64,000 bases of DNA. Source: Taibaiella helva. Its GTDB lineage: Bacteria > Bacteroidota > Bacteroidia > Chitinophagales > Chitinophagaceae. Positions 22,018 to 45,044 of this stretch are shown in pieces; within the stretch, counting starts at the first letter, position 1, and each line of letters opens with the position of its first letter. Under the pieces are notes generated by a model. That model made no database searches. It was not told where the DNA came from and worked only from the letters and a program-made list of their open reading frames with translations. The translations under genes were made by a program, and so were the position numbers. The stretch covers positions 434,001-498,000 of the forward strand of contig NZ_QUZZ01000003.1 in the NCBI RefSeq assembly GCF_003545695.1, in the 5' to 3' direction.

Positions 22018-22055
22018 TTAAACGTTTGTTTAATTTCTGAAATTGGTTAATTTTG
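22018..22055 (+). promoter_or_regulatory. Promoter and TTAAAC-N4-GTTTAA operator of inositol-lipid group 1
   Basis: The palindrome TTAAACGTTTGTTTAA spans 22018-22033. A -33 element TTTG (22025-22028) lies inside it and a -7 element TAATTTTG (22048-22055, consensus TAnnTTTG) follows at a spacing of 19 bases. A protein bound to the palindrome would therefore cover the -33 region. The same 12 fixed bases recur before the serine palmitoyltransferase gene (36418) and the inositol-phosphate synthase gene (40176). The rest of the spacer 21783-22017 holds nothing I can name. Confidence 0.75.
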
Positions 22056-22085
22056 CATCTGAAAACAGTGACAATTATCTGGTGT

Positions 22086-23411
22086 ATGAGTGATGTTTCT
22101 TTCAGGGAAAGGGCGCAAAAGGGCATTTATAAGATTATTAATCCTTTTGTGCGTTTTCTGATCCGGCTGGGGCTGACGCCCAATGCGGTAACAACAATAG
22201 GGTTGTTGCTGAACATAGGGGTGGCGGTGATCTTCATCATCGGCGCAGAAAAGGGGAACCGCGGCGAGCTGGGTTATGTCGGCTGGGCCGGTGGTCTGAT
22301 CCTGTTTGCAGGCCTTTTCGACATGCTGGATGGCCAGGTGGCGCGTTTGGGCAAGATGTCCTCTACTTTCGGCGCCCTGTACGATTCGGTGCTGGACCGT
22401 TACAGCGAGCTGATCCTGTTCCTCGGTATCTGTTACTATCTTATCTCCCATCACTATTTTTTAAGCTCTTTGTTTGCCTTTATCGCCATGATCGGCTCGA
22501 TGATGGTGAGCTATACCAGGGCCCGCAGCGAAGGGCTCGGTATTGAGAACAAGGGCGGGTTGATGCAAAGGCCCGAGCGCGTGATCCTGATCGCCCTGTC
22601 GGCGATCACCACCGGTGTCGCAGCCGCATTTGTAGAGGGCGACGGCAAAGTATTTATTCCTGGTATCCGTTTTCATGTGTTTGAATTAATGAGCATCTTT
22701 ACAATCCCCATAGCAATAATGGCTGTTTTAACCAATATCACTGCGTTCAAGCGTCTTATCGATGCCAAAAAAGCACTGGATAAGATCGATGCAGAAAAAG
22801 CGAAAAAAGTTTCCACCACCAATATAGCCGCCGTGCTCCTGCTGGGTGCTACTTTATTTGCCGCGCCGGCGATGGCGCATCCCCCGCGTATCGACGACGG
22901 CCGTGCAACCTTTACCGAAGCGGTCGATACTTTTCCGGTACCTAAGTTCAATGCCAAGACCCAGTTCTACGTACAGCGTACCCCCAATACCAATACAATC
23001 ATGTACGAGCTGAACATGAAGAACGGCGAGCTGAACGAAGACAATCCCATTCATGTGTACTGGATAAGATATACGGAGGGTGGCGGCACAAAGGAATTAT
23101 CATATATTCAGCGTAAATTTGCCTATGGTGTTAAAACGGTGAAGATCGCGGATGAAAAATTCAAGCTCCTCTTCGCCGCTTACGACAAAATTCCTTTTTA
23201 CCTGATGAAATCCACTGCCGGTATCTACCACACTTACGTGGAGCTGGACGGCAAAATGGTTGTGCTGAAAAGGTTGTATATCCGTATCGATCCGGGTGGC
23301 ACCTTTTGGGCGCCCAATGTAAAATACGTGGAGTTCAAAGGGACGGAAGTCGCGAGCGGAAAGGAAGTGATCAAAAGGATCAACCCGAAGTGGAAGCCCC
23401 CGAAGCAGTAG
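22086..23411 (+). CDS. Phosphatidylinositol-phosphate synthase (CDP-alcohol phosphatidyltransferase) fused to a DUF4833 domain
   Basis: A 441-residue fusion. Residues 1 to about 220 are a CDP-alcohol phosphatidyltransferase with a complete active-site motif: D79-xx-D82-G83-xx-A86-R87, G96, D100, D104, plus several membrane helices. With inositol-lipid genes around it, transfer of inositol phosphate to CDP-diacylglycerol is inferred. Then comes a Lys-rich linker, a signal-peptide-like helix (about 245-264, ending APAMA) and a DUF4833-like domain (about 265-441, FYVQRTPNTNTIMYELN, PIHVYWIRY). The upstream TTG at 22053 is rejected because it lies in the -7 box; ATG 22086 is the first usable start. 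The second domain should be periplasmic; its function is unknown. Confidence 0.85.
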   Translation: MSDVSFRERAQKGIYKIINPFVRFLIRLGLTPNAVTTIGLLLNIGVAVIFIIGAEKGNRGELGYVGWAGGLILFAGLFDMLDGQVARLGKMSSTFGALYDSVLDRYSELILFLGICYYLISHHYFLSSLFAFIAMIGSMMVSYTRARSEGLGIENKGGLMQRPERVILIALSAITTGVAAAFVEGDGKVFIPGIRFHVFELMSIFTIPIAIMAVLTNITAFKRLIDAKKALDKIDAEKAKKVSTTNIAAVLLLGATLFAAPAMAHPPRIDDGRATFTEAVDTFPVPKFNAKTQFYVQRTPNTNTIMYELNMKNGELNEDNPIHVYWIRYTEGGGTKELSYIQRKFAYGVKTVKIADEKFKLLFAAYDKIPFYLMKSTAGIYHTYVELDGKMVVLKRLYIRIDPGGTFWAPNVKYVEFKGTEVASGKEVIKRINPKWKPPKQ

Positions 23412-23450
23412 CGGCATACCGGCAAAGGCCTGATCAGAAAAAAAAAGACA

Positions 23451-24077
23451 ATGAAAAAGAATTACGTTTCCAACTCTACCGAATCCATACGCATGTTCAA
23501 AAGCAACTTCCTGGAAACCTTTTCAAAGGTTCACTGGACGGTGCCCATGATCCTGTATGTACCGGTGGTGCTGGTATTTGCCTACCTGGGGTTGTTTGTA
23601 GCGCATACCCCTGTGCTGACTTTCCTGGGTATGTTTGCTGCCGGCCTGCTTTCCTGGACCCTGTTCGAATATGTGCTGCACCGCTGGATCTTCCATTATG
23701 TACCCAAGGCCAAATGGGCGCTGCGCCTGCACTTTATATTCCATGGCGTACACCACGACTACCCCAACGACATGAAAAGGCTGGTTATGCCGCCTTCCGT
23801 AAGCATTCCCCTGGCATTTGGCGTGTATTTTGCTTTACGCGCGCTGATGCCGCCTGTATACCTCTATCCCTTCTTTTCCGCGTTTGTGGTAGGCTACATC
23901 ATTTACGATACTATGCACTACGCGCTGCACCATTTCAATTTTAAAGGTGAATTCTGGAAAAAGATCAAGAAGCACCATATGCTGCATCACTACTCCGACG
24001 CGAGCAAAGGCTTTGGCGTGAGTTCAGAACTGTGGGATAAAGTGCTGAATTCCGGCTTCCCGAAGAAGAAAAACTAA
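23451..24077 (+). CDS. Sterol desaturase/fatty-acid hydroxylase family protein (FA2H/Scs7-like)
   Basis: A 208-residue membrane di-iron enzyme. Seen: four membrane helices and the histidine ladder H77-xxxx-H82, H94-xxx-H98-xx-H101-H102, H156-xxx-H160-H161 and H175-H176-xx-H179-H180. This set and the short length resemble the catalytic part of fatty-acid 2-hydroxylases (Scs7/FA2H) that act on ceramide acyl chains. Between a PIP synthase and an IPC synthase, 2-hydroxylation of the ceramide N-acyl chain is the likely role (inference). Its stop overlaps the next ATG by one base (TAATG, 24075-24079). A beta-carotene hydroxylase is the main alternative. Confidence 0.85.
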   Translation: MKKNYVSNSTESIRMFKSNFLETFSKVHWTVPMILYVPVVLVFAYLGLFVAHTPVLTFLGMFAAGLLSWTLFEYVLHRWIFHYVPKAKWALRLHFIFHGVHHDYPNDMKRLVMPPSVSIPLAFGVYFALRALMPPVYLYPFFSAFVVGYIIYDTMHYALHHFNFKGEFWKKIKKHHMLHHYSDASKGFGVSSELWDKVLNSGFPKKKN

Positions 24078-25033
24078 TGAGTTCAACAACCATAACGAAT
24101 GTTTCCCGTATCAGTCCCATGCCCGTGCACCGGCGGCTGCTGCTTGCGGGAGGTATCAGCGTCGCGTATCTGATCCTTTCCTTTTTCCTGATCGGTTTCC
24201 GTCCCGAGCAGATCTTTATATCGGGTGTGTTCTTCCTCCTGTATACGCTTTCCAAGAAGACACGCAACTTCGTCCTTACCCTGATGCCTTTTATCGTTTT
24301 CTGGGTGATCTTCGATTATATGAAGGCCTTTCCCAATTACCGGTTCAATACAGTGCATATCGGGGATCTGTATGCCCTGGAAAAAAAGTACTTTGGCTTC
24401 AGCTACCAGGGTAGCCTGCACACCATTAACGAATTCTGGACCCAGAACCGCAACACCTTTCTCGATGTGCTCAACGGCTTCTTCTACCTTTGCTGGATGC
24501 CGGTACCCATTTCTTTTGCCGGCTACCTGTTTTTTAAGAACCGGCGGGCAGCTATCGAATTCTGTCTCACTTTCCTGCTTACCAATTTCGTAGGCTTTAT
24601 CGGCTATTATGGCTACCCGGCGGCGCCGCCATGGTATATCCACGAGCATGGCCTCGCCTTCAATCCGGCCACACCCGGTAATATTGCCGGACTGGCAGGC
24701 TTCGATCATTTCTTTGGCGTGCAGATCTTCCACGGTCTCTACGCCAAAAGCTCCAATGTATTTGCGGCGATGCCTTCCCTGCATACCGCCTATGCATTGC
24801 TCTCGGTTTATTATGCGTTCAGGAAGAATGTAGCCCTGGGCTGGAAAATATTCCTTACCATCGTTTGCCTGGGTACCTGGTTTGCGGCCCTCTATACCGA
24901 TCACCATTACCTGCTGGATGTGCTGGTCGGTATCCTGTGCGCGATCATAGGGATCACCCTTTTCCGCAGTGTACTGTTGAGAACCCGCGGCTTTAAGAAA
25001 TTTATGGACGGTTATTACCAGCAGGTAGCCTGA
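24077..25033 (+). CDS. PAP2-superfamily inositol phosphoceramide synthase-like protein
   Basis: A 318-residue polytopic membrane protein of the PAP2/Aur1 type. Seen: six or more helices, GYYGYPAAPPWY at about 176-187, AAMPSLHTAY at about 230-239 with catalytic His236, and YTDHHYLLDVLVG at about 273-285 (His276/277 and Asp281 complete the triad). The GYPxAPPWY plus MPSLH plus HHYxxDV combination is that of fungal Aur1 and the bacterial IPC synthases of Bacteroides. It would move phosphoinositol from phosphatidylinositol to ceramide and release diacylglycerol. It is translationally coupled to the hydroxylase gene and ends six bases from the convergent diacylglycerol kinase gene. Confidence 0.87.
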   Translation: MSSTTITNVSRISPMPVHRRLLLAGGISVAYLILSFFLIGFRPEQIFISGVFFLLYTLSKKTRNFVLTLMPFIVFWVIFDYMKAFPNYRFNTVHIGDLYALEKKYFGFSYQGSLHTINEFWTQNRNTFLDVLNGFFYLCWMPVPISFAGYLFFKNRRAAIEFCLTFLLTNFVGFIGYYGYPAAPPWYIHEHGLAFNPATPGNIAGLAGFDHFFGVQIFHGLYAKSSNVFAAMPSLHTAYALLSVYYAFRKNVALGWKIFLTIVCLGTWFAALYTDHHYLLDVLVGILCAIIGITLFRSVLLRTRGFKKFMDGYYQQVA

Positions 25034-25039
25034 GGCATA

Positions 25040-25390
25040 TCAGCAAAGGAATACCAGGATGCCGATCGCTGCAGCCAGCACCGCTGCGATCAGTACCGCT
25101 GCAGCACCGATATCTTTAGCCTGCCCGATCAGCGGATGATGCGCTTTGCTCACCGCATTAGCCAGCCGTTCCAGTGCGGTGTTAAGCGCTTCGGTGAGCC
25201 ACACAACACCTATAGCTAACAGGAGCAAGGCCCAGCGAAGCGGGCTTAAGCCGCGTATGCTGCCGGCGCACAGCACCACCACGGTCGCCAGAGCATGCAG
25301 CTGCATATTGCGCTCCGAACGGATTAAGGTATACAAGCCTTGAAAAGCGTAACGAAAGCTTTTCCCCAGCCGCGATAGTTCCTTTCTCAT
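25040..25390 (-). CDS. dgkA: Diacylglycerol kinase family protein (DgkA-type)
   Basis: A 116-residue small membrane kinase of the DgkA family (diacylglycerol or undecaprenol as acceptor). The ATG at 25390 is used; the frame extends only to a TTG upstream. Seen: N-terminal amphipathic part with RSERNMQLHALAT (about 24-36), three membrane helices and the active-site stretch TEALNTALERLANAV with HPLIGQAKDIGAAAVL. It is convergent with the IPC synthase-like gene, six bases apart. Since IPC synthesis releases diacylglycerol, a recycling role to phosphatidic acid is plausible but inferred; undecaprenol kinase is the main alternative. Confidence 0.88.
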   Translation of the reverse strand: MRKELSRLGKSFRYAFQGLYTLIRSERNMQLHALATVVVLCAGSIRGLSPLRWALLLLAIGVVWLTEALNTALERLANAVSKAHHPLIGQAKDIGAAAVLIAAVLAAAIGILVFLC

Positions 25391-25517
25391 AAGCAATTTC
25401 CTTTACAAAAGGCGACAATTCTGCTGCCAAAAGGTTGGCCCCGCAACGCATAAGCTGCAGGGCAACCGGCATAGGGCAGGGGCTTGGGTAGAAAAAAGAA
25501 CAGGTGTAATACTAAGC

Positions 25518-25997
25518 TCAGGCGGCCAGCCGGATCCGGTTACGTACCGCCTCAATGGGTTGCTGTACTAAGCTGAACCAGTTCAGCCGGTTCAGCGAGG
25601 GCGTGCTGCGGCCCCTGATCCAGGCCCGCCGGAAAACACCCCATTTCTCGGGCATAAGGAGCAGGCCCACCGCTACGCTGAACAGCACAGGGGCGGTAAT
25701 ACGACCGTTAGCCAGCATAAAGCATTGCAGGCATACCTCTCCTTCTTCCGTAGGCGGATAACCCAGCACCACATGCTTGATGTCGTGCTTCTCGTAATGA
25801 GGCAGCAGGTGAAGATCATTGTCTTCAAAAAAGGAATACAGCGCTTTGCCTACCGTGCCATCAGGTAGCTTTTGCAATTGCTTTAGCGAATAGGGAAAGC
25901 GGTAGCCCCTACGGACAAGCTTGAAATAGGGCAGGGCGACCTCATGTGCAAGGTAGACCAGGAGCCGTTTGCGCAGGGAACTGAGTTGTATTTTCAT
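25518..25997 (-). CDS. Coq4-like protein
   Basis: A 159-residue protein resembling the Coq4 family of ubiquinone biosynthesis. Seen: LPDGTVGKALYSFF at about residues 44-57 and an exact zinc-site motif HDxxH-x11-E (H71, D72, H75, E87). Length is shorter than the eukaryotic protein. Bacteroidota normally use menaquinone, so a classical CoQ role is not expected; such homologues probably act on another lipophilic substrate. No quinone gene is adjacent. The family call rests on the motif and the flanking LP-G-GxA pattern. Confidence 0.7.
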   Translation of the reverse strand: MKIQLSSLRKRLLVYLAHEVALPYFKLVRRGYRFPYSLKQLQKLPDGTVGKALYSFFEDNDLHLLPHYEKHDIKHVVLGYPPTEEGEVCLQCFMLANGRITAPVLFSVAVGLLLMPEKWGVFRRAWIRGRSTPSLNRLNWFSLVQQPIEAVRNRIRLAA

Positions 25998-26081
25998 AAT
26001 AGTGACATTTTTTTGAGGGAGAGAAATGAATAGTCAGGGCTTCGGAATGCTTGTATTGCCGGTTGCTCAGCGTACATCCAG

Positions 26082-26192
26082 CTACCGCAGGCAAGCTGTA
26101 ATGACCGCAACTGTAAACAGGAGGAAGCAGCCGATAGCAATCATCGTAGCTGTTGTCCATCTTGCTTTTATCAGGAATGTTTTGTAGATCAT
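26082..26192 (-). CDS. Possible 36-residue single-helix membrane protein
   Basis: A short frame reading MIYKTFLIKARWTTATMIAI and on to TACLR, with a basic N-terminus and one hydrophobic helix (about 15-33), starts 28 bases after the end of 26221-26547 on the same strand. It looks like a small membrane protein. There is no good ribosome-binding site, and no family is recognised, so it could be chance. Confidence 0.35.
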   Translation of the reverse strand: MIYKTFLIKARWTTATMIAIGCFLLFTVAVITACLR

Positions 26193-26220
26193 AGTATAAA
26201 AGAGCTGGCCTGTGGGCCTG

Positions 26221-26547
26221 TTAGAACTTAAGGTCTCCCATTGCTGAACCGGCTGCCAATACGATCAGTGTAATGATACAAGCAGCAATGCCGAAGAAGA
26301 TCGCTAAGACAGTTCCTACTGCAGAAAGGACAGCCCAATCGCCCGGCCGGTGCTGCCGCATCCATCGCCGTCCTTTTTGCAGCAGCCGGAACAGCAGGCC
26401 GCAACTTGCGCTGACCGGTATGCCTGTCAATAACACCCAAGCACCTTTACCGCCCATACTTTGGTTCAGCAGGTTGATGCCGGCAAGCACAAACTGCAGG
26501 TAGCAGGCTGCAGCGACAATGATCGGGTATGCCCATTCTTGTTTCAT
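26221..26547 (-). CDS. Small membrane protein of unknown function
   Basis: A 108-residue hydrophobic protein with about three membrane helices (YPIIVAAACYLQFVLAGINL, then WVLLTGIPVSASCGLLF, then AVGTVLAIFFGIAACIITLI). The ATG at 26547 is chosen because the frame upstream begins at a TTG that falls inside a palindromic operator (26555-26571). That palindrome ends eight bases before the start, in the same place as the matching one upstream of the gene at 26935-27609, so the two genes are probably controlled by the same winged-helix regulator. No family recognised. Confidence 0.6.
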   Translation of the reverse strand: MKQEWAYPIIVAAACYLQFVLAGINLLNQSMGGKGAWVLLTGIPVSASCGLLFRLLQKGRRWMRQHRPGDWAVLSAVGTVLAIFFGIAACIITLIVLAAGSAMGDLKF

Positions 26548-26554
26548 TAAAAGT

Positions 26555-26571
26555 ACTTTGTTTTTCAAAGT
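26555..26571. promoter_or_regulatory. Operator palindrome ACTTTG-N5-CAAAGT, copy 1
   Basis: A 17-bp palindrome (extended by one pair to TACTTTG...CAAAGTA) sits seven bases before the start of the small membrane protein gene at 26547. An identical pair of arms is found at 27616-27632, six bases before the gene that is co-transcribed with a winged-helix regulator. Confidence 0.65.
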
Positions 26572-26634
26572 AAATAGATAAAATAAGAGCTGCGCTTTTT
26601 GCCGGCGGCGTTGAGCGCCCGGCTTGCGCAGCCT

Positions 26635-26934
26635 TTAGTTAACGCTTTTGATGATCTTTTCGAGCGCGTCGAGGTGCTGGCGGAAAGCCTTCTCGCCGGC
26701 GCGGGTAATGGAATAGACGGTATTGGTCTTACGCCCGATAAATCCTTTTTCCACTTTAATATACTTGTGCTCCTCCAGGGTTTTCAGGTGGGTAGCCAGG
26801 TTACCGTCGGTAGCATCGATCAGCGCCTTGAGGTCGTTGAAGTTGATGTCTTCATTCACCATTAGGGCGCTCATGATGCCGATCCGGATACGGCTGTCGA
26901 AAACCTTGTTGAGCTGTTCGAGTTCTTTCCTCAT
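26635..26934 (-). CDS. Winged-helix transcriptional regulator
   Basis: A 99-residue regulator made of one winged-helix domain (Bacteroidota 'winged helix DNA-binding' type, related to ArsR/PadR folds). Seen: VFDSRIRIGIMSALMVNEDI, DLKALIDATDGNLATHLKTL as the recognition helix region, and a wing with KVEKGFIGRKTNTVYSIT. No metal-binding Cys/His pattern. Its ATG (26932-26934) directly abuts the stop of the membrane-protein gene 26935-27609, so the two form an operon. It probably binds the palindromes ACTTTG-N5-CAAAGT at 26555 and 27616 (inference). Confidence 0.88.
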   Translation of the reverse strand: MRKELEQLNKVFDSRIRIGIMSALMVNEDINFNDLKALIDATDGNLATHLKTLEEHKYIKVEKGFIGRKTNTVYSITRAGEKAFRQHLDALEKIIKSVN

Positions 26935-27609
26935 TTACTGATCATATTTGCGCCACATGATAATGCCATAGACAATGTGCAGCACGCCAAAGCCGAGAGC
27001 CCAAAGATAAAGCCCATATCCCGGTGAAAGAAATAATCCGATGCAGCCCAGGATCACTTCCGTTAAACCCAGGTATTTAATATCCGAAACGGTATACTTG
27101 CTGCCATTGATAAGCGCCAGACCATAGAAGATCAGGCAGGCGGGTGAAATGTAGATCCAATCGCCACGATAAGCAAAAGCTAAAGTAACAATAGCTCCGG
27201 CGACTAGCGGAATAGCCAGGTTGATCACCATTTTACGGGAAACTGCATTCCACATTTTTACCTCGGTCTGCTTATTCTTTCTGTAGGTGAAATAGAAGCC
27301 ACCGATAAAGGCTACAGTAAAGGTGCTGATAGCAAGAACGAGGAACTGCAGCATATAGCTTCTGAAATCTTCAAGATAATTTTCAATAGCGCCAGCAGCA
27401 GAAAGCTCAGCCTCAAATGAGCCATAATAGTAAGTAAAACCATGGGATTTTTCTAGCCACCCAAAGGCTATTGCGGCGCCGGCAAGAGCCACTGTGCCCG
27501 CCCATACGCCGCTCCAGCCGCTAAGCGAGAGAAAGCGTGCCGAACGTTCCATAATACTGCGGATCTGTTGCAGGGTTTCCAGCGAATTGTCTTTTTCTTC
27601 CGTGTTCAT
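26935..27609 (-). CDS. Polytopic membrane protein co-transcribed with a winged-helix regulator
   Basis: A 224-residue protein. The ATG at 27609 is preferred: the frame runs upstream but through a palindromic operator (27616-27632). Seen: a soluble N-terminal part with LETLQQIRSIMERSARFLSL (about 10-29), then about six membrane helices ending in VLHIVYGIIMWRKYDQ. This pattern, a short amphipathic start followed by a membrane bundle and then a winged-helix regulator, is common in Bacteroidota but I know of no assigned function. Confidence 0.75.
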   Translation of the reverse strand: MNTEEKDNSLETLQQIRSIMERSARFLSLSGWSGVWAGTVALAGAAIAFGWLEKSHGFTYYYGSFEAELSAAGAIENYLEDFRSYMLQFLVLAISTFTVAFIGGFYFTYRKNKQTEVKMWNAVSRKMVINLAIPLVAGAIVTLAFAYRGDWIYISPACLIFYGLALINGSKYTVSDIKYLGLTEVILGCIGLFLSPGYGLYLWALGFGVLHIVYGIIMWRKYDQ

Positions 27610-27615
27610 AAAAGC

Positions 27616-27632
27616 ACTTTGAAAAACAAAGT
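27616..27632. promoter_or_regulatory. Operator palindrome ACTTTG-N5-CAAAGT, copy 2
   Basis: Exact 6+6 inverted repeat with an AAAAA centre, six bases upstream of the ATG at 27609. So close to the start, a bound protein would block both transcription start and translation initiation signals. Matches the copy at 26555-26571. Confidence 0.65.
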
Positions 27633-27697
27633 AAGTCGATATTTTTTTAACAAACAACTATCGGGTCAAAAATATTTTTGACTTCTTCATCCCTATT

Positions 27698-29797: not shown

Positions 29798-29907
29798 CGG
29801 CGATCAATTCTGTTCGCGCAAAAATAAGAAGTATGGGGCAGGCAGAAAAGTGATCCGGCTGGTGGCGTTTTTGGAATAAGCCCGTGGTGCGATCCGAAGC
29901 TAAGGGT

Positions 29908-29937
29908 CAAAAAGAAACCCGGCAAAAGCTTGCCGGG
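29908..29937 (-). terminator. Intrinsic terminator, minus strand
   Basis: CCCGGCAA and TTGCCGGG arms (29918-29925 and 29930-29937) form a hairpin followed on the minus strand by a T-rich run. It would end transcripts from the isomerase gene at 30108-31076. The stretch 29938-30107 holds nothing else I can name. Confidence 0.75.
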
Positions 29938-30107
29938 CCCTTCATTTGAACCAATTTGCATAATCGAACCTGGCTATTAGAATAGTTACAGGAGCAAAAG
30001 TTTAATCGCCTTGCGAAAAGAAAATATATAAATATTGTCCTCCTGTTTGGTCGTATCCCTTTGCCGGTTGAATATCTGGAAATGTTCGTTCTATTTGCTG
30101 CCGGTCT

Positions 30108-31076: not shown

Positions 31077-31240
31077 GGGCGCAAAGGTATCGAGTTTTTC
31101 ACCGTCTTTGCTGAAAACAGGTCTTTCTTCAAAATTGACGGATTTTACCCCTTATTTGTCGGTGTAACCCGTGCCGGAGCCCGTGCGGTCCCGGTATCTT
31201 TGCCTGTACAAGTTTCCAGAACCTTTAAAACTGATATACG

Positions 31241-35797: not shown

Positions 35798-35867
35798 TAG
35801 ATTGATAATAAACTATTAAGGTAGTAGCCAATCGTTCTGCTCCCACTATAAAAGAGAACAAAACAAC

Positions 35868-35902: not shown

Positions 35903-35917
35903 TTAATAGAGAGGGTC

Positions 35918-36310
35918 ATGATCGATTTTTCGAAGGAAATAACATTCCGCACGGCCCGCAGCGGCGGAAAAGGCGGTCAGAACGTGAACAAGGTAGAGAC
36001 GCTGGCCGAGGCGCTCTGGGACATCAGTAACACAGGTTTCTTTAATGCGGAACAACAGGCGATGATCCGCGAAAAGCTGGCCGGCAGAATCAGCAGCGAA
36101 GGTTGGCTGCAGGTCAGATCAAGCGAGGCGCGCACCCAATTGGGCAATAAGAAAAAGGCTGTGGAAAAAATGTTGCTCCTTGTCAATCAGAGCGTCCTGA
36201 AGCCCAGGAAGCGGTTGGCGTCGAAGCCCTCAAAAGCTGTGGTAGAAAAACGGTTGAATATGAAGAAGCGGTTGTCAGAGAAGAAGTTACACAGGAGAAA
36301 AGATTGGTAA
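35918..36310 (+). CDS. arfB: Alternative ribosome-rescue peptidyl-tRNA hydrolase ArfB (YaeJ)
   Basis: A 130-residue class I release-factor-like protein. ATG 35918 follows a GAGAGGG ribosome-binding site; the longer frame begins at a GTG. Seen: RTARSGGKGGQNVNKVET with the catalytic GGQ at residues 19-21, and a basic C-terminal tail (KPRKRLASKPSKAVVEKRLN onward, ending RRKDW) that enters the empty mRNA channel. There is no codon-recognition domain, which separates it from RF1/RF2. It rescues ribosomes stalled on non-stop messages. Confidence 0.94.
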   Translation: MIDFSKEITFRTARSGGKGGQNVNKVETLAEALWDISNTGFFNAEQQAMIREKLAGRISSEGWLQVRSSEARTQLGNKKKAVEKMLLLVNQSVLKPRKRLASKPSKAVVEKRLNMKKRLSEKKLHRRKDW

Positions 36311-36410
36311 TTTTGAAGAAAAGAAGGCAAAAAGTATAGGAAAGAAACGGGGCTTTTTAGTATTAAATTTATTTCATTAACTTCTCCTTAGTAAATTATT
36401 AATGCGCTTT

Positions 36411-36443
36411 TTTGCCTTTAAACAAGTGTTTAATTTATTTTTG
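36411..36443 (+). promoter_or_regulatory. Promoter and TTAAAC-N4-GTTTAA operator of the serine palmitoyltransferase gene
   Basis: A -33 TTTG (36411-36414) and -7 TATTTTTG (36436-36443) are 21 bases apart, and the palindrome TTAAACAAGTGTTTAA (36418-36433) fills the spacer between them. The central four bases differ from the copies at 22018 and 40176 but all 12 arm bases match. The 5' leader is about 140 bases and contains an AT-rich inverted repeat (CTAAATTAA...TTAATTTAG) near 36543-36569. Confidence 0.75.
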
Positions 36444-36562
36444 TACTTAATTTTTTAATTAGCTTTGGGAACCCGGCGTCGTGCTTTGCGCGGAAATGAG
36501 GAAGGAACGCCGGCCTTATATCCCCAAAACAAAAAGGGAGCACTAAATTAAATTTATATTAA

Positions 36563-37792
<1,230 letters not shown>

Positions 37793-37820
37793 TTTGCCCC
37801 CTGCAAATGAACGATAATAA

Positions 37821-37865
37821 AAACAGAACGCTGAACGGATCAATGATCGGCGTTCTGTTTTTTTA
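37821..37865 (+). terminator. Intrinsic terminator after serine palmitoyltransferase gene
   Basis: AAACAGAACGCTGA (37821-37834) pairs with TCGGCGTTCTGTTT (37847-37860), one G-U pair, followed by a T run. The next gene therefore needs read-through or its own promoter; I see no TAnnTTTG box in 37866-37932. Confidence 0.85.
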
Positions 37866-37932
37866 GGGCCTTAGCGCCTGCACCAATGACCATTAACCAC
37901 CCATTGATTTACGCACTTAATCATACCATGCA

Positions 37933-39063
37933 ATGATCAAAGTAGCTGCCATCCCCTCCAAAGGAAAAGACCTGAGGACCTTTATCGATTTTCCGCACGA
38001 TCTGCACCGCGACGATCCCTATTACGTACCGGAGCTTTTCATGGCCCAGCGCGACCTGCTGAACCCCGACAAGCATCCTTTTTTCAAGCACGGCCGCATG
38101 CAGCTGTTCCTGGCGCATAAGGACGGGAAGCTTGCCGGCCGTGTGGCGGCGATCTTCAACGGCAACCACAACACCTTTAATAAAGGTAACGACGGTTTTT
38201 TCGGCTTCTTCGATTGCATCGACGACCAGGAAGTGGCTAATGCCCTGCTGCAGACTGCGGAAGGCTGGCTGCGCGATCAGGGCCTGTCCACGATGATCGG
38301 ACCGGTGAACCCCTCTACCAACGAGCCCTGCGGCCTGCTGGTCGATGGCTTCGACAGTTCGCCCATGATCCTGATGCCCTACAATCCGCTTTACTATAAA
38401 ACCTTGCTGGAGCGCTACGGCCTGACCAAGCAGGTGGATCTTGTGGCCTATGCTTTGTACGATAACGATTTGGGCGATAAACCAATACGTCTTCAGGAAG
38501 CGCTTACCGAGCGCCTTGCCTCAAAGGGAATTGTGGTACGCCCTTTCGACCTCAAGCATAATTTCAAAAGAGAGCTGGAGCAGTTCGGCAAAGTGTACAA
38601 TGCAGCGTGGGATAAGAATATGGGCTTCGTACCCATGACCAAAGAGGAGTTTGACTTTATGGGCAAGGATATGAAAATGATCGCCGATACCGACTTTTGC
38701 CTGGCCGCCGAGCACAACGGCGAAGTGGTGGGTATCGCCTTATGCCTGCCCGATATCAACCAGGTACTGAAAAAGATCAAAAGAGGCCGGCTGTTTCCTG
38801 CCGGTGTGTTCAAATTCCTGTTTGGCCGCAAAAAGATCAACGCCTTGCGGATACTGGCATTGGGCGTGCTGGAACCTTACCGCAAAATGGGGATTGAAGC
38901 CTGCTTCTATGCCACCATTATGAAAAAGGGCAGGGAGAAGGGCTTCAAAATGGCTGAAGCTTCCTGGATGCTGGAGCATAATGATCTGATGAATAAAGCG
39001 ATAGAGCATATGCATGGTGTGCGGTATAAAACCTACCGGATTTTTGAAAAACAATTGTCCTGA
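37933..39063 (+). CDS. GNAT-family N-acyltransferase, bacterial ceramide synthase-like
   Basis: A 376-residue protein of the large GNAT-like family that includes the bacterial ceramide synthase (bCerS) found in Caulobacter. Seen: YVPELFMAQRDLLNPDKHPF (about 36-55), LAGRVAAIFNGNHN, GFFGFFDCIDD, MIGPVNPSTNEPCGLLVDGF, then a second GNAT half with VGIALCLPD and RILALGVLEPYRKMGIEA, the acyl-CoA pyrophosphate loop. Position between SPT and a CerR-like reductase supports N-acylation of the sphingoid base. The Bacteroidota enzyme is not proven here; another N-acyltransferase role is possible. Confidence 0.8.
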   Translation: MIKVAAIPSKGKDLRTFIDFPHDLHRDDPYYVPELFMAQRDLLNPDKHPFFKHGRMQLFLAHKDGKLAGRVAAIFNGNHNTFNKGNDGFFGFFDCIDDQEVANALLQTAEGWLRDQGLSTMIGPVNPSTNEPCGLLVDGFDSSPMILMPYNPLYYKTLLERYGLTKQVDLVAYALYDNDLGDKPIRLQEALTERLASKGIVVRPFDLKHNFKRELEQFGKVYNAAWDKNMGFVPMTKEEFDFMGKDMKMIADTDFCLAAEHNGEVVGIALCLPDINQVLKKIKRGRLFPAGVFKFLFGRKKINALRILALGVLEPYRKMGIEACFYATIMKKGREKGFKMAEASWMLEHNDLMNKAIEHMHGVRYKTYRIFEKQLS

Positions 39064-39119
39064 TGATAGCTTCCGGCGCTGCCGGAGGTTAATGAGAAAA
39101 GAAAACCAAACGAAAACGA

Positions 39120-40121
39120 GTGGCGACGCAGGGTAAAATCTTTCTTACCGGGGCTTCCGGCTTCATCGGCTATCACCTGGTAGCCGAGGCAGTAGCGCGG
39201 GGCTTCGAGGTCGTAGCAGCGGTGCGCAAAAGCAGCCGGCTCGATCAGCTAAAGGATTTCCCGGTACAATATGTCTATCCCGATTTTTACGATATAGCCT
39301 CCTTGCAGCAAGTGCTGGCTGCCGGGCGGTTCGATTACATCATCCATATGGCCGGCGCTATCCGCGCCAAAAACCAGGAGGCTTTCAACCAGGTCAATGC
39401 CGGGTTGACCCGGAACCTGGCCCAGGCTGCCTTACAGGCAAATATTCCTTTAAAGAAGTTCGTGTTCCTGAGCAGCCTCGCCGTGATGGGGCCCGTGACC
39501 TACGATAGCCCAACACCCATCACGGAAGCGAAAACAGCTGAGCCGATCACGGCTTACGGTCGCAGCAAGCTGCTGGCCGAGCAGTACCTGTCCGGGCTGG
39601 AAGCCCTGCCTCTGGTGACGCTGCGGCCTACAGTGGTATATGGCCCCGGGGAAAAAGACCTGTTTGTAATGCTGCGCAGCCTGTCGAAGGGCTGGGAGCC
39701 TTATATCGGGCGGCAGAGCCAATGGCTGAGCTTTGTTTATGTGGCAGACCTGGTAAACCTTTGCCTCGACGTGTTGCTGAAGAATACGACGGCTGGTGTT
39801 GCCTGCAATATCAGCGACGGCAAGGTCTATGCCCGGGAGGAAGTAGCGCAGATCATCAAAAAGATATTGGGAAGGAAGACTTTCCGCTTTTATATACCGG
39901 TAGGGGTGGTCAGGGCTTTGGCTGTCCTTCTGGAGCGGATATATCGTAACAGCGCTAAGCTGCCTTTGCTGTACCCCGAAAGAGTGGGTGAGATCACTGC
40001 GCCCAACTGGAACGTGGGCATCGAAAAAGCGAGGACGGAACTGGATTATGAACCGCGTCATTTCCTGGAAGAAGGAATGGCGAAAAGCCTGGCCTGGTAC
40101 CGGGAGCAGAAGTGGTTGTAA
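39120..40121 (+). CDS. NAD(P)-dependent epimerase/dehydratase, CerR-like ceramide reductase candidate
   Basis: A 333-residue extended short-chain dehydrogenase. Start is GTG 39120; the only nearby ATG is out of frame. Seen: FLTGASGFIGYHL (8-20, nucleotide-binding GxxGxxG), catalytic S118/S119 and Y146-xxx-K150 (AYGRSKLLAEQYL), and LRPTVVYGPGEKD. Most relatives act on sugar nucleotides, but in the bacterial ceramide gene sets a member of this family (CerR) reduces the 3-keto group of the sphingoid product. Its place after SPT and the ceramide synthase-like gene supports that role (inference). Confidence 0.8.
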   Translation: MATQGKIFLTGASGFIGYHLVAEAVARGFEVVAAVRKSSRLDQLKDFPVQYVYPDFYDIASLQQVLAAGRFDYIIHMAGAIRAKNQEAFNQVNAGLTRNLAQAALQANIPLKKFVFLSSLAVMGPVTYDSPTPITEAKTAEPITAYGRSKLLAEQYLSGLEALPLVTLRPTVVYGPGEKDLFVMLRSLSKGWEPYIGRQSQWLSFVYVADLVNLCLDVLLKNTTAGVACNISDGKVYAREEVAQIIKKILGRKTFRFYIPVGVVRALAVLLERIYRNSAKLPLLYPERVGEITAPNWNVGIEKARTELDYEPRHFLEEGMAKSLAWYREQKWL

Positions 40122-40175
40122 AGTACAATCGTTGGGGAATACAACGAAAAGGAATAAGCCAATTGAAAAAATTAA

Positions 40176-40215
40176 TTAAACGTTTGTTTAAATTAGGTAA
40201 TTGTTATTATCTTTG
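40176..40215 (+). promoter_or_regulatory. Promoter and TTAAAC-N4-GTTTAA operator of the inositol-phosphate synthase operon
   Basis: The palindrome TTAAACGTTTGTTTAA (40176-40191) is identical over all 16 bases to the one at 22018-22033. It contains the -33 TTTG (40183-40186); the -7 TATCTTTG (40208-40215) is 21 bases away. The start codon is at 40277. Confidence 0.78.
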
Positions 40216-40276
40216 CGGCATTAATTGACGCTTTTCATTTTAGCCTTTATACAATTTACATACAAAACAGAATACA

Positions 40277-41602
40277 ATGGATTATCAAATCGAAGCAGCA
40301 AAAGGTAAGCTGGGTGTGCTGATACCCGGTATGGGCGCCGTAGCCACTACCTTCATTGCCGGTGTGGAAGCGACAAAAAAAGGTATTGCCAAGCCGATCG
40401 GCTCCCTGACCCAGCTCGGCAATATCCGCCTGGGTAAGCGTACCGAGAACCGTTACCCCAAGATCAAGGATTTTGTGCCCCTGGCTACACTGGAAGATAT
40501 CGTTTTCGGCGGTTGGGATGTGTACAGCGACAACGTGTACGAAGCCGCTTCGAATGCCAAAGTGCTGCAGCAGCACCAGCTGGATGCGATCAAAACCGAG
40601 CTCGAGCAGATCAAGCCGATGAAGGCTGTATTCGACCACGAATATGTGAAGAACCTCGACGGTACCCATATCAAGGCAAAGGATACCAAATATAACTGGG
40701 CCCTGGCTTTGATGGAAGATATCCGCAACTTTAAAGAGCAGAACAATTGCGAGCGCCTGGTAATGGTGTGGTGCGCTTCTACAGAAAAATATATCGAGCC
40801 GGCCGATATCCACAACGATATCGCCCTGTTTGAAGAAGCGATGAAGAACGACGACCCCCGTATCGCGCCCAGCATGGTCTATGCTTATGCCGCGATCAAG
40901 ATGGGCGTTCCCTTTGCCAATGGCGCACCCAATCTCTCCTGCGATATCCCCGCCCTGGTAGAGCTGTCCAAAGAGTTGAACGTGGCCATTGCCGGTAAAG
41001 ATTTCAAAACCGGTCAGACCCTGATGAAAACCATCGTAGCCCCCGGCCTGGCTGCACGTGCCCTGGGCGTGAACGGCTGGTTCTCCAGCAATATCCTGGG
41101 CAACCGCGACGGCCTGGTGCTGGACGATCCCGAAAACTTCAAGACCAAGGAAGTATCCAAGCTGAGCGTGCTGGAGGAGATCTTCCAGCCCGAGCATAAT
41201 CCTGAGCTGTACGGCGAGCTGTACCACAAAGTACGGATCAACTACTACCCGCCTCACGGCGATAACAAAGAAAGCTGGGACAACATCGACATCTTCGGAT
41301 GGATGGGCTATCCTATGCAGATCAAGATCAATTTCCTGTGCCGCGACTCTATCCTGGCAGCGCCTATCGTACTCGATCTGGCCCTGTTCATGGACCTGGC
41401 CCAGCGCGCCAATATGAGCGGTATCCAGGAGTGGCTGTCGTTCTACTTCAAGTCGCCGCAAACTGCCGAAGGCCTGAAGCCCGAGCACGACATCTTCAAG
41501 CAATTGATCAAACTGCAGAATACGCTGCGCCACATTATGGGCGAAGACCTCATTACGCACCTGGGCCTCGATTACTACCAGGACCTGGTAGAGGCCCTCT
41601 AA
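40277..41602 (+). CDS. ino1: myo-Inositol-1-phosphate synthase (inositol-3-phosphate synthase)
   Basis: A 441-residue NAD-dependent cyclase that turns glucose 6-phosphate into myo-inositol phosphate. Seen: KLGVLIPGMGAVATTFIAG (dinucleotide-binding start), IGSLTQLGNIRLGKRTENR, GKDFKTGQT, NGWFSSNILGNRDGLVLDDP, and RDSILAAPIVLDL near the C-terminus, all typical of the bacterial MIPS family. Length fits. It supplies the head group for phosphatidylinositol and inositol sphingolipids. It starts an operon with a PgpA-like phosphatase, GtrA and DUF5686 genes and is preceded by the shared operator. Confidence 0.95.
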   Translation: MDYQIEAAKGKLGVLIPGMGAVATTFIAGVEATKKGIAKPIGSLTQLGNIRLGKRTENRYPKIKDFVPLATLEDIVFGGWDVYSDNVYEAASNAKVLQQHQLDAIKTELEQIKPMKAVFDHEYVKNLDGTHIKAKDTKYNWALALMEDIRNFKEQNNCERLVMVWCASTEKYIEPADIHNDIALFEEAMKNDDPRIAPSMVYAYAAIKMGVPFANGAPNLSCDIPALVELSKELNVAIAGKDFKTGQTLMKTIVAPGLAARALGVNGWFSSNILGNRDGLVLDDPENFKTKEVSKLSVLEEIFQPEHNPELYGELYHKVRINYYPPHGDNKESWDNIDIFGWMGYPMQIKINFLCRDSILAAPIVLDLALFMDLAQRANMSGIQEWLSFYFKSPQTAEGLKPEHDIFKQLIKLQNTLRHIMGEDLITHLGLDYYQDLVEAL

Positions 41603-41631
41603 ACCGGCGCAAGCATTAAGCAGCTTCATTA

Positions 41632-42075
41632 ATGAAATGGATCGCTTCTATTTTCGGAATAGGATATATACGCAAAGGCGGTGGTACGGTTGCTGCCGCC
41701 TTTGCTGCATTTGTATGGTGGCTCCTGTTCCATAACTATGGCACATTATTTGTATGGCAGGTAGTGCTTACCCTGGCTATCACCCTGCTGGGCGTATGGG
41801 CCGGCAATGTGGTGGAGAAAGACTGGGGCAAGGATAGCTACCGGGTCGTGATCGACGAGGTGGCCGGTATGTTCATCAGTGTGCTGTTCATTCCTATTGA
41901 CTGGCAGTGGCTGCTCACCGGCTTTGTGCTGTTCCGCTTTTTCGATATCGCCAAGCCGCTTTACATCCGCAGGATGGAAGCGTTCAAAGGCGGCTGGGGC
42001 GTGATGCTGGACGATGTGCTGGCAGGTATATATGCCAACATCCTTTTGCAGATCATTGTCGTTCTTTTTAAATAA
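41632..42075 (+). CDS. Phosphatidylglycerophosphatase A family protein, probable PI-phosphate phosphatase
   Basis: A 147-residue membrane phosphatase of the PgpA family. Seen: IGYIRKGGGTVAAAFAAFVWW (PgpA start motif GxGxxPxAPGT-like, modified here), DWGKDSYRVVIDEVAGMFIS with the conserved DExAG, FVLFRFFDIAKPLYIRRMEA, and GGWGVMLDDVLAGIYANI. PgpA proteins dephosphorylate phosphatidylglycerophosphate, but in Bacteroides inositol-lipid gene sets this homologue next to MIPS is thought to remove phosphate from phosphatidylinositol phosphate. The 29-base gap to MIPS supports co-transcription and that role (inference). Confidence 0.87.
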   Translation: MKWIASIFGIGYIRKGGGTVAAAFAAFVWWLLFHNYGTLFVWQVVLTLAITLLGVWAGNVVEKDWGKDSYRVVIDEVAGMFISVLFIPIDWQWLLTGFVLFRFFDIAKPLYIRRMEAFKGGWGVMLDDVLAGIYANILLQIIVVLFK

Positions 42076-42115
42076 TTGTTTTTTTAAACTGCCGGGACAA
42101 CCGCTCATCACGGTA

Positions 42116-42505
42116 ATGCGAACTTTCTTAAAAGCCCAGGCCTCGTCGCTGATCTCGACCGGGGTTGACTTTGGGGTCACTTTTATTGGCAAGCAACTGC
42201 TCGAGTGGTTTTTTGCAGCCAGTGTGGTCGGCAATATCTCCGGCGGAATTACCAATTTCTTGCTGGGCAGGAACTGGGTTTTTTCGTCTAAGGAGAACGG
42301 GGCAGGTTGGCAGGCATTAAAATATATCATCGTGTGGGCCGGTAATCTCCTGCTTAATGCCGGCGGAGTGTATGTGTTCACCGAAATCATCAAACTAGAG
42401 GATTGGATATCCAAGATCGCGATATCATTGCTCGTAGGCATAGGTTATAATTATGTACTTCAGAAATTTTTTGTTTTCAGAAAGCAGCGACAGCAAAGGG
42501 CTTAA
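42116..42505 (+). CDS. GtrA family membrane protein
   Basis: A 129-residue protein with four membrane helices of the GtrA type (SSLISTGVDFGVTFIGKQLL, GNISGGITNFLLGRNWVF, IIVWAGNLLLNAGGVYVF, SLLVGIGYNYVLQKFFVF; the NFxxxRxWVF and YxxxKxxVF motifs are family marks). ATG 42116 starts a sensible N-terminus; the longer frame overlaps the phosphatase gene. GtrA proteins are linked to transfer of lipid-linked sugars across the membrane. In this operon a role in moving inositol lipid or a precursor is an inference. Its end overlaps the next gene by 53 bases. Confidence 0.85.
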   Translation: MRTFLKAQASSLISTGVDFGVTFIGKQLLEWFFAASVVGNISGGITNFLLGRNWVFSSKENGAGWQALKYIIVWAGNLLLNAGGVYVFTEIIKLEDWISKIAISLLVGIGYNYVLQKFFVFRKQRQQRA

Positions 42506-45044
42506 GACCGGCAAATGGCTGGCGCTGGTATTGCTGCTGCTTATTGCCGGACAGGTGCAGGGATGGGCGCAGACCATTGTTCGCGGCACTGTAAAGGATG
42601 CGACTTCGGGCGATCCTATGCCCTTTGTGAGCGTGGCCATCAAAGGAACAACTTCTGGCACCACTACCGATGTGCAGGGTAATTACGAGCTGCAGACCTC
42701 TGAGCAGGCCGCTAAAATACAATTCACCTTCCTGGGATATATTACCGAGACCCGCGACCTCGTGATCGGGCAGACACAGACGATCAATATATCACTGAAG
42801 GAAAGCAACAAGACCCTGGACGAAGTAGTGATCAAGCCCAAGAAAGAAAAATACCGTAACAAGAATAATCCTGCCGTAGAGCTCATCCGCAGGGTGATCG
42901 AGCATAAGAAGCAGAACCGGATGGAACATTATGACTATGTTTCCTACCAGGAATACGAAAAGATGCAGGTGGCCATCAACAATACGCCCGAAGCCATCAA
43001 GAAGAATTTCCTGTTCCGGAAGTATAAGTTTGTGCTGGACAATGTAGATACTACCAAGATCGCCGGTAAGGCGCTGCTGCCGGTTTACCTTGAAGAAAAT
43101 ATTTCCCAGAAGTACTTCCGTAAGAGCCCGGAAAAGAAAAAGGTGATCATAACGGCGACCAAGCGCATCAATTTCGACGAGCGCTATATCAACAACGAAA
43201 GCATTACGACTTATCTCAAGCACCTGTACCAGGATGTAGATCTTTATGAAAATAATGTCTACGTAGTGACGAACTCCTTCCTGAGTCCTATTGCCGATAT
43301 GTCGCCCACTTTTTACAAATTCTATATTACCGATACCGTATCTGCCGATGGGATCAAGCTGGTGGAGCTGTCTTTGTTTCCGCGCAATAAGAACGACCTG
43401 CTTTTCCAGGGTAAGCTGTATGTCACGCTCGACGGCAATTACGCCGTACAGAAAGCGGTGCTGGGTGTAAACAAAGATGTGAACCTGAACTGGGTGACCA
43501 GCCTGGACCTTACACTGGACTTCGAACGCAGCGCTGACGGCCGCTACCATCCTTCCAAAAGCAATCTGTTGGTGAACTTTGGCTTGTTCCAGGGTAAGAA
43601 AGGACTCTTCGGAGAGCGTTCGGTAACGATCCGTAACTTCAACATGACCGATCGTATCGCCGACAGTATATTCAAAGGGCAGGAGACCGTAAGGGCCGAC
43701 AGCTCGCTCAACCACAGCAACGATTACTGGCTGCAAAACCGCCCGGACTCGCTCTCTGCCGTGGAGGCGAATACCTACCGCAACATGGACAGCCTCAACA
43801 ACATGAAGTCGTTCAAGACGCTGATGTGGATCGGTACTACCTTCCTCGCCGGTTATAATGTAAACGGTCCCGTAGAAATAGGCCCCCTGAGCACTTTCTA
43901 CAGCTTCAACCCGGTCGAAGGCTTCCGCCTGCGTTTCGGTGGCCGTACCACTACCCAGTTCAGCAAGCGTTTCTATACCGAGGCATACGGCGCTTACGGT
44001 TTCAAGGATGAGCGCTGGAAGTTCTACCTCGGCGGTACTTATTCGATCAACAATAAGAGCATCTACACCTACCCCCTGAATTATTTCAGGGCCAGCTTCC
44101 AGCGGGAAACGAGCATTCCCGGCCAGGATCTGCAGTTTGTACAAGAGGACAACCTGCTGCTTTCCTTCAAGCGGGGCATCAATGATAAGTGGATGTATAA
44201 CGACATCTTAAAACTGGAGTATGTATACGAATTCGGCGACCATATGAGCGTAAGGGCGCAGTACAAGAACCAGAAGCAGGAAGCAGCCGGCGGCCTCGAC
44301 TTTATCTATGCCGACGGCAGCCTGAAAGATACCGTGCAATCGTACCGCAACTCCGAAGTCGGGCTGGAATGGCGTTGGGCGCCCCACGAGCAGTTCTTCC
44401 AGCGCAAGCTATACCGCACACCCATTCCCAATGCTTATCCCATCATTACCGTGCGCTTTAACGCCGGCGTGAAAGGCTTGTTTGGCGGGCAATACAACTA
44501 CCAGGCCATCAGGGGCAATATTTATAAGCGTTTTTATTTATCGCAGCTGGGCCTGGCCGACGTGATTATCGGCGGCGGCTATATTTTCGGAAAAGTACCT
44601 TATCCTTTGCTGGATATCGCCAAAGCCAACCAGACCTATGCCTACCAACTGCAGGCCTACTCGCTGATGAACTTCCTGGAATTTGTGAGCGACCGTTATG
44701 TCAACCTGAATATCGATTACCACATGTATGGCTTTATCTTTAACAAAATACCCCTGTTCAAAAAGCTGAAGCTGCGTGAGGTGGCCACCTTCAAGCTGCT
44801 GTATGGCGGCGTACGGGCTGAGAACCGGCCTCAGAACGACCCGGGCCTGTTCCGCTTCCCCGTCGACCAGTACGGACGCACAACTACCTATTCGCTCGAA
44901 AAGGAGCCTTATATGGAAGTGAGCGTAGGCGTGGAGAATATTCTTAACCTGTTCCGGGTCGACCTGGTGAAACGCCTCTCCTACCTGGATCATCCTTATA
45001 TTTCCGACCTGGGTGTCCGGGCCAGGATCAACTTCGATTTCTAG
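42453..45044 (+). CDS. DUF5686 and carboxypeptidase-regulatory-like outer-membrane protein
   Basis: An 863-residue protein. Seen: signal peptide (about 18-40, WLALVLLLLIAGQVQGWAQ), a carboxypeptidase-regulatory-like domain (about 42-128, VRGTVKDATSGDPMPFVSV), then the long DUF5686 region with PAVELIRRVIEHKKQN and a C-terminal beta-barrel ending in LGVRARINFDF. Such proteins are outer-membrane barrels of unknown function in Bacteroidota. The ATG at 42453 lies within the 3' end of the GtrA gene (53-base overlap, another frame); no in-frame ATG that keeps the signal peptide exists later. Operon membership with the inositol genes could be functional or only positional. Confidence 0.88.
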   Translation: MYFRNFLFSESSDSKGLKTGKWLALVLLLLIAGQVQGWAQTIVRGTVKDATSGDPMPFVSVAIKGTTSGTTTDVQGNYELQTSEQAAKIQFTFLGYITETRDLVIGQTQTINISLKESNKTLDEVVIKPKKEKYRNKNNPAVELIRRVIEHKKQNRMEHYDYVSYQEYEKMQVAINNTPEAIKKNFLFRKYKFVLDNVDTTKIAGKALLPVYLEENISQKYFRKSPEKKKVIITATKRINFDERYINNESITTYLKHLYQDVDLYENNVYVVTNSFLSPIADMSPTFYKFYITDTVSADGIKLVELSLFPRNKNDLLFQGKLYVTLDGNYAVQKAVLGVNKDVNLNWVTSLDLTLDFERSADGRYHPSKSNLLVNFGLFQGKKGLFGERSVTIRNFNMTDRIADSIFKGQETVRADSSLNHSNDYWLQNRPDSLSAVEANTYRNMDSLNNMKSFKTLMWIGTTFLAGYNVNGPVEIGPLSTFYSFNPVEGFRLRFGGRTTTQFSKRFYTEAYGAYGFKDERWKFYLGGTYSINNKSIYTYPLNYFRASFQRETSIPGQDLQFVQEDNLLLSFKRGINDKWMYNDILKLEYVYEFGDHMSVRAQYKNQKQEAAGGLDFIYADGSLKDTVQSYRNSEVGLEWRWAPHEQFFQRKLYRTPIPNAYPIITVRFNAGVKGLFGGQYNYQAIRGNIYKRFYLSQLGLADVIIGGGYIFGKVPYPLLDIAKANQTYAYQLQAYSLMNFLEFVSDRYVNLNIDYHMYGFIFNKIPLFKKLKLREVATFKLLYGGVRAENRPQNDPGLFRFPVDQYGRTTTYSLEKEPYMEVSVGVENILNLFRVDLVKRLSYLDHPYISDLGVRARINFDF

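Follow-up and report, generated by a model that had tools for sequence, protein, structure and literature searches.

The route that places an inositol head group on a bacterial sphingolipid was set out by gene deletions in Bacteroides thetaiotaomicron, where BT_1522, BT_1523, BT_1525, and BT_1526 provide the precedent (PMC9246714, PMC8791184). For the ceramide backbone, the reference genes are spt, cerS, and cerR of Caulobacter and the Rhodobacteria (PMC11087976, PMC11324152), and in sphingolipid-producing Bacteroidota the three ceramide genes are reported not to lie close together (PMC11334938). In a 64,000-nucleotide stretch of Taibaiella helva DNA (RefSeq assembly GCF_003545695.1, contig NZ_QUZZ01000003.1, positions 434,001 to 498,000; hereafter the window, to which coordinates refer), both sets are found in two gene groups. 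Group 1 spans 22086-25033 and group 2 spans 36587-45044, with about 11.5 kb between them. The genome, G000 below, comprises 4.82 Mb in 34 contigs and is estimated to be 100% complete. We consider it likely that the two groups are displaced halves of a conserved operon for the synthesis of inositol phosphoceramide, the N-acyl chain of which is probably alpha-hydroxylated. Inositol phosphoceramide was also the product named in the original prediction, made from the letters of this DNA alone, and gene families and gene company continue to point to it.

The case for an operon comes from relatives of a single domain, DUF4833, which in the window is fused to the phosphatidylinositol phosphate (PIP) synthase. 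The best 80 of 278 DUF4833 relatives were kept as a named-genome set, which consequently leans towards close relatives; some of its loci are cut by contig ends. A row of all 11 genes, with the same order on a single strand throughout, is found in 22 of the 80 loci: SPT-bCerS-CerR-MIPS-PIPPh-GtrA-DUF5686-PIPS-DUF4833-FA2H-IPCS. These are serine palmitoyltransferase (SPT), bacterial ceramide synthase (bCerS), ceramide reductase (CerR), myo-inositol-phosphate synthase (MIPS), a PgpA-family phosphatase (PIPPh), a GtrA-family protein, a DUF5686 protein, PIP synthase (PIPS), DUF4833, an FA2H-type hydroxylase, and an AUR1-like inositol phosphoceramide synthase (IPCS). Full rows are found in Chitinophaga, Taibaiella soli, Terrimonas, Segetibacter, Pontibacter, and Dawidia, among others; a gap of more than 300 bases occurs in 3 of the 22, and L215 and L216 are of one strain. 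Mucilaginibacter has the row without a GtrA match. Thus, the gene set is not a chance assembly, and so constant an order makes it probable that the split in the window derives from a conserved operon. In T. koreensis, T. lutea, and T. chishuiensis, the PIPS-FA2H-IPCS part likewise stands apart, with no other row genes seen within 10 kb. It follows that the split looks derived in that group.

The 80 loci also show how the genes keep company when the row is incomplete. Within 10 kb of DUF4833, PIPS is found in 60 loci, IPCS in 63, and FA2H in 51 (on the opposite strand in one, L204), and PIPS and IPCS occur together in 60; DUF5686 is present in 69. At least one of PIPS, IPCS, another CDP-alcohol transferase, SPT, bCerS, CerR, and MIPS lies within 10 kb in 74 loci. 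The six marker-free loci are five from Hymenobacter and a Runella contig, L209, that holds only three genes of the alternative cluster described below. In 60 genomes of the family, PIPS exceeds its cut-off in nine and a strong IPCS (323-350 bits) is found in the same nine; a tenth gives only a 24-bit match. All genes form a single run in four of the nine (G006, G026, G029, and G034), the G015 run lacks bCerS and CerR, and in G000 and G001 the genes fall into separate groups. In the last two, G004 and G035, DUF4833 is absent from the genome, and the 20 kb retrieved contain neither FA2H nor SPT.

The nine genes named in the original prediction are all intact open frames, and their family assignments agree with Pfam and NCBIfam. 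That prediction had not included the DUF4833 domain on PIPS, the GtrA gene, or the gene at 42453-45044.

SPT (36587-37792, on the plus strand, as are all genes of the two groups) scores 731.3 bits on NF047600, above the cut-off of 640. Its best PDB matches are the SPT entries 8guh and 3a2b (602 bits), which we take to be from Sphingobacterium; a cysteate acyltransferase, 28eh, reaches 238 bits. The other two members of the putative trio are placed through AOS-linked plasmid genes. The bCerS candidate (37933-39063) gives a weak Pfam GNAT match of 28.3 bits. Among plasmid sequences it matches 44 records, 43 with at least 80% coverage and all below 60% identity, and five of these loci were opened (Rubrobacter, Streptomyces, Rahnella, Aureispira, and Diaphorobacter). 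In four of the five, the full-length match, at 33-40%, is to a protein next to an AOS-family gene. AOS, GNAT, and SDR genes stand together in the Rubrobacter, Streptomyces, and Rahnella loci, and in Aureispira AOS and GNAT are together with an SDR nearby. The Rahnella locus, whose GNAT aligns with that of the window at 33% over 383 columns, adds an acyl carrier protein and a fatty acyl-AMP ligase; matched by annotation against the published gene list, this set corresponds to the five Rhodobacterial ceramide genes (PMC11324152). The CerR candidate (39120-40121) scores 116-137 bits to all four AOS-linked SDRs; paralogues of its own genome reach 75 bits at most. The genome has 36 SDR matches, of which 24 besides CerR were put forward for a tree and 23 entered it. 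In this tree the window protein groups with the four AOS-linked SDRs and not with the 23 paralogues: six CerR proteins and the four AOS-linked SDRs share a fork at 91/91, unstarred, and at 95/91 with two own rows added. A check for unrelated clades was run in part: neither 37933 nor 39120 fell into one, both siding with AOS-linked genes, and the claimed likeness to the bacterial SPT/CerS/CerR trio is borne out.

The trio thus has in common with Caulobacter and the Rhodobacteria an AOS-family SPT, a GNAT ceramide synthase, and an extended-SDR reductase (PMC11087976, PMC11324152). Unlike theirs, it adjoins an inositol branch, and no acpR or aasR was found between 36587 and 45044, the segment to which the search was confined. 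In contrast to the scattered genes reported for Bacteroidota (PMC11334938), the three genes are adjacent in the window, and 38 of the 80 loci have all three no more than 10 kb from DUF4833. A second SPT is encoded elsewhere in G000 (C31:119586-120764, L227; NF047600 706 bits, over the cut-off), and the 20 kb around it contain no further marker of the pathway. The near-complete genome G304 has a PIPS-DUF4833 fusion and IPCS on C1 (L126); no SPT match was found in it at E ≤ 1e-100, with six of nine candidates scored, and this may perhaps be a case of IPCS without an evident ceramide source.

The head-group enzymes were compared with the BT proteins through NCBIfam models and PDB entry 7nwr only, and on that basis the likeness to the BT_1522-BT_1526 set holds. 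MIPS (40277-41602), assigned by Pfam, matches 7nwr, an inositol-3-phosphate synthase that is presumably BT_1526, at 575 bits, with the next best PDB profile match at 211. PIPS occupies about residues 1-240 of the protein encoded at 22086-23411 and scores 391.7 bits on NF052561 (PIPSynBT1523), above the cut-off of 350; it has the motif DxxDGxxAR...GxxxDxxxD given for BT_1523 (PMC9246714). The Pfam PgpA protein (41632-42075) is the sole PgpA match in the whole genome. CDP-alcohol transferase matches number two, PIPS and a PssA-like protein (TIGR00473 103.1 bits, cut-off 107), and no PgsA-type transferase was found in the genome. No competing PgpA or PgsA paralogue was found. With no phosphatidylglycerophosphate synthase found, a phosphatidylglycerophosphate phosphatase would have no evident substrate, and the PgpA-family protein is therefore probably the PIP phosphatase, the role assigned to BT_1525 (PMC9246714).

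The last enzyme, a PAP2_3 protein (24077-25033), is probably an AUR1-type inositol phosphoceramide synthase that would move phosphoinositol to ceramide. At E ≤ 0.01, its only PDB matches are the AUR1 entries 9vj3 and 9ivc (E 4e-21). The two histidines and one aspartate of PAP2 proteins are catalytic, and the corresponding H236, H277, and D281 are invariant in all eight sequences aligned, the ninth genome, G004, being left out.

Two further genes of group 2 have family counterparts in the same system. The GtrA-family membrane protein (42113-42505) corresponds to BT_1524 by family and place, and the CarboxypepD_reg and DUF5686 protein (42453-45044, although its start may lie further downstream) is the probable counterpart of BT_1527. 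The window thus has in common with BT_1522-BT_1527 a MIPS, a PgpA-type phosphatase that is probably a PIP phosphatase, GtrA, a PIP synthase, an AUR1-like synthase, and a carboxypeptidase-regulatory-like neighbour (PMC9246714, PMC8791184). It is unlike that system in that the set is joined with SPT, bCerS, CerR, an FA2H-type hydroxylase, and DUF4833. An alternative inositol cluster consists of an NTP transferase, a CDP-alcohol transferase, and a HAD hydrolase (PMC9246714). It was not seen in the window; G018 has it near DUF4833 together with FA2H and SPT-bCerS-CerR-MIPS-DUF5686, and eight Runella and Larkinella loci have it near DUF4833 together with CerR-DUF5686.

Between PIPS and IPCS lies the hydroxylase gene (23451-24077), whose stop overlaps the IPCS start (TAATG). 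At E ≤ 0.001, the protein matches a single kind of PDB entry, yeast SCS7 (147 bits, E 6e-42, 186 residues aligned). Its histidine clusters and an RLVMPP stretch are in register with SCS7, and the clusters are invariant in all eight relatives aligned. Nine high-scoring FA2H loci were seen with their surroundings, and six lie in the gene row (G000, G029, G034, G154, G269, and G315). From hydroxylase family and place among the genes, the product would probably be 2-hydroxylated, as originally proposed. Such a hydroxylase should need O2, and the product should accordingly depend on aeration. In the literature searched, no account was found of an FA2H-type gene inside a bacterial sphingolipid operon. 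A second FA_hydroxylase paralogue in G000 (C11:381170-381751, L228) lies beside a PaaA_PaaC-family gene.

DUF4833 (PF16117, 157.8 bits) forms residues 294-431 of the PIPS protein and is attached through a signal-peptide-like segment. Among named genomes, from which records of the window's genome itself may be missing, its closest relative found, in T. koreensis, is 95% identical over the domain. DUF4833 is found in 20 of 296 genomes of a phylum sample, and 19 loci were examined there, with fragment matches in G225 and G229 excluded. Six of the 19 are accompanied by classical PIPS/IPCS (G000, G029, G034, G269, G304, and G315), one lies inside the alternative cluster of PMC9246714 (G245), and six follow a GtrA gene (G078, G082, G193, G261, G277, and G300), so that a link or probable link to a head-group module exists in 13. 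The remaining six (G061, G105, G113, G160, G205, and a second G245 locus) are without a marker gene. The GtrA-DUF4833 group may be a Flavobacterium type, at a guess; its CDP-alcohol transferase and PhyH are Pfam-confirmed in one of six loci and otherwise rest on gene size and the GtrA match. The loci of this kind (L128-L131, L133, and L134; Pfam on L128 only) have SDR, CDP-alcohol transferase, GtrA, DUF4833, and PhyH, the last belonging to another family of alpha-hydroxylases, and may represent a parallel module for hydroxylated lipids. In L134 (G193 C9:754515-754965), DUF4833 is spread over two reading frames, which may reflect a disrupted gene or a sequencing error. Three Olivibacter loci (L163, L166, and L170) present a third head-group variant, in which SPT-bCerS-DUF5686-FA2H is accompanied by GtrA, DUF4833, and another CDP-alcohol transferase. 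In all, DUF4833 adjoins three kinds of CDP-alcohol transferase.

The domain is fused to PIPS in 28 of the 80 named loci. A hydrophobic stretch (Kyte-Doolittle ≥ 2.0 over 12 residues; one of the 80 loci gave no result) precedes it in 27 of the 28 fused proteins, with a mean of 2.68, and net positive charge comes just before in 25; in separate proteins, a strongly hydrophobic stretch precedes the domain in 46 of 51. These leaders fit an extracytoplasmic DUF4833, and the domain is probably located outside the cytoplasm, with the separate form probably secreted. AxA occurs in 24 of 28 fused and 32 of 51 separate proteins, counts that are suggestive only, as they have no chance control. The AlphaFold model of the domain (pLDDT 90.5) is nearly all beta. 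It has no PDB match at E ≤ 0.001 by Foldseek (best 0.024, TM-score 0.21), and the sequence has no PDB relative at E ≤ 1. The fused protein is modelled poorly (pLDDT 66.8), and topology was accordingly not derived from that model. No mention of DUF4833 was found in the literature searched. A role as a partner of FA2H only was considered and rejected, because 18 of the 60 PIPS-positive loci have no FA2H within that distance of 10 kb and because G154 (L139), a near-full row without a GtrA match, has FA2H without DUF4833. Strict specificity for inositol is weakened by the three Olivibacter loci and the six others in which another CDP-alcohol transferase is present or likely.

Several results weigh against a pathway to hydroxylated inositol phosphoceramide. 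On NF052609, the curated model for phosphoinositol dihydroceramide synthase, IPCS scores 325.6 bits, below the cut-off of 480, which is reached in none of the 60 family genomes; here the window is unlike the BT_1522-BT_1527 system. The PgpA protein scores 73 bits on the NCBIfam PgpA equivalog, whose cut-off is 226, a result that neither names a PIP phosphatase nor excludes that role. The Diaphorobacter plasmid stretch has the GNAT without an annotated AOS or SDR, next to LptF/LptG permeases, a CDP-alcohol transferase, and nucleotidyltransferases, and most Roseomonas ones among the 15 matches listed also name a nucleotidyltransferase under the match; the GNAT family is thus not confined to AOS neighbours. 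A cytochrome b5 domain is part of yeast and mammalian SCS7/FA2H; the bacterial hydroxylase of the window (208 residues) has the histidine-rich core in common with SCS7, but Pfam finds only FA_hydroxylase in it and no cytochrome b5 domain. FA2H profile matches at E ≤ 1e-20 occur in 88 of the 296 phylum genomes, far more than have DUF4833. The homologues L140 (G061), L141 (G201), and L142 (G291), at 317-324 bits, have no sphingolipid or inositol gene in 20 kb, and FA2H is missing near 18 PIPS-positive loci, as noted. The family is thus wider than the pathway, and the link to sphingolipids rests on the in-row loci.

These points bear on what the enzymes act on. PF04116 spans several hydroxylase and desaturase chemistries, the SCS7 match is at family level only, and close homologues lie away from the pathway in three of nine loci, so the hydroxylase might instead target C4 of the sphingoid base, in the manner of Sur2, or a different lipid, and not C2 of the N-acyl chain. 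We regard this as rather doubtful, since the sole PDB matches are to SCS7, which in yeast hydroxylates the fatty acid of ceramide, and the histidine clusters and RLVMPP stretch align with it. It seems improbable that the inositol branch stops at phosphatidylinositol (PI), with the PAP2 protein a lipid phosphatase or the maker of another phosphosphingolipid. The NF052609 score and the SPT search in G304 would allow it, but AUR1 entries are the only PDB matches, and PIPS and IPCS go together in 60 of 80 loci and in the same nine family genomes. A role for DgkA in recycling the diacylglycerol released by IPCS, which had been proposed, is very unlikely to belong to this system. The gene (25040, minus strand; DAGK_prokar 114 bits) does have its 3′ end 6 bases past IPCS, but it is convergent with it on the opposite strand and adjoins it in only 3 of the 80 loci, all Taibaiella.

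For DUF4833, it is quite possible that the domain only serves PIP synthase, as a structural or regulatory appendage, and takes no part in sphingolipid traffic, as the 28 fusions and the 18 PIPS-positive loci with DUF4833 and no FA2H would suggest; in most loci, however, it is encoded separately and has a hydrophobic leader, and it also adjoins other CDP-alcohol transferases where there is no classical PIPS. From place and company we propose, as a speculation with the odds against it, that DUF4833 acts outside the cytoplasm as a carrier or adaptor dedicated to the phosphosphingolipids of Bacteroidota. It would pick up the completed lipid, in many cases alpha-hydroxylated, from IPCS at the outer face of the inner membrane and move it towards the outer membrane, perhaps passing it to the DUF5686 protein, and the fused form would be delivered where the head group is synthesised. 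The route of sphingolipids to the outer membrane is stated to be unknown (PMC11324152). If the proposal is true, DUF4833 would be a first component of such an export route in Bacteroidota.

As read from gene families and neighbourhood, the chemistry, the order of its steps, the site of hydroxylation, and the placement and role of DUF4833 would be as follows. MIPS would produce myo-inositol phosphate, which PIPS would join to CDP-diacylglycerol. The PgpA-like enzyme would then strip the extra phosphate to give PI, from which the AUR1-like PAP2 enzyme would transfer phosphoinositol to ceramide. The FA2H-type protein would add a hydroxyl to the ceramide N-acyl chain, and DUF4833, outside the cytoplasm, would probably assist in completing, retaining, or exporting the phosphosphingolipid. 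The outer face is where PAP2 enzymes act. In Caulobacter, Spt and bCerS are cytoplasmic and CerR is periplasmic (PMC11087976); if these locations hold, ceramide reduction, IPCS chemistry, and DUF4833 would share the periplasmic side.

The arrangement of the window is also reflected in matches to a promoter consensus. The pattern TTTG-N17-23-TAnnTTTG, which we take to be the Bacteroidota promoter consensus, has seven matches in the window, against a mean of 1.52 in 100 shuffles, none of which reaches seven. Three of the matches, all on the plus strand, head the PIPS (22025-22055), SPT (36411-36443), and MIPS (40183-40215) units, and four lie elsewhere in the window. A sigma-70 scan was uninformative (20 sites in the window versus 17.7 expected). 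Near the lipid genes, positions 25518-25997 on the minus strand encode a Coq4-like protein (40.8 bits), which T. koreensis, T. lutea, and T. chishuiensis also have at their loci.

To summarize, Bacteroides thetaiotaomicron had already supplied the head-group route and Caulobacter the ceramide trio, whereas the joint gene row, the FA2H-type gene within it, and DUF4833 are new. Sphingobacterium is said to contain 2-hydroxy sphingolipids and inositol-ceramides, which the literature search did not confirm. Thus, the lipid itself may not be new, and the new part is the gene assignment and the joint row. It was in gut Bacteroides that bacterial inositol sphingolipids were elucidated; in Chitinophaga, Pontibacter, and other genera, a single row of genes covers the route from the backbone to the head group. 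The row supplies a candidate gene for the N-acyl hydroxyl and ties the uncharacterised DUF4833 to the pathway. Which enzyme hydroxylates the sphingolipids of Bacteroidota, and how these lipids reach the outer membrane, can now be tested in cultured strains.

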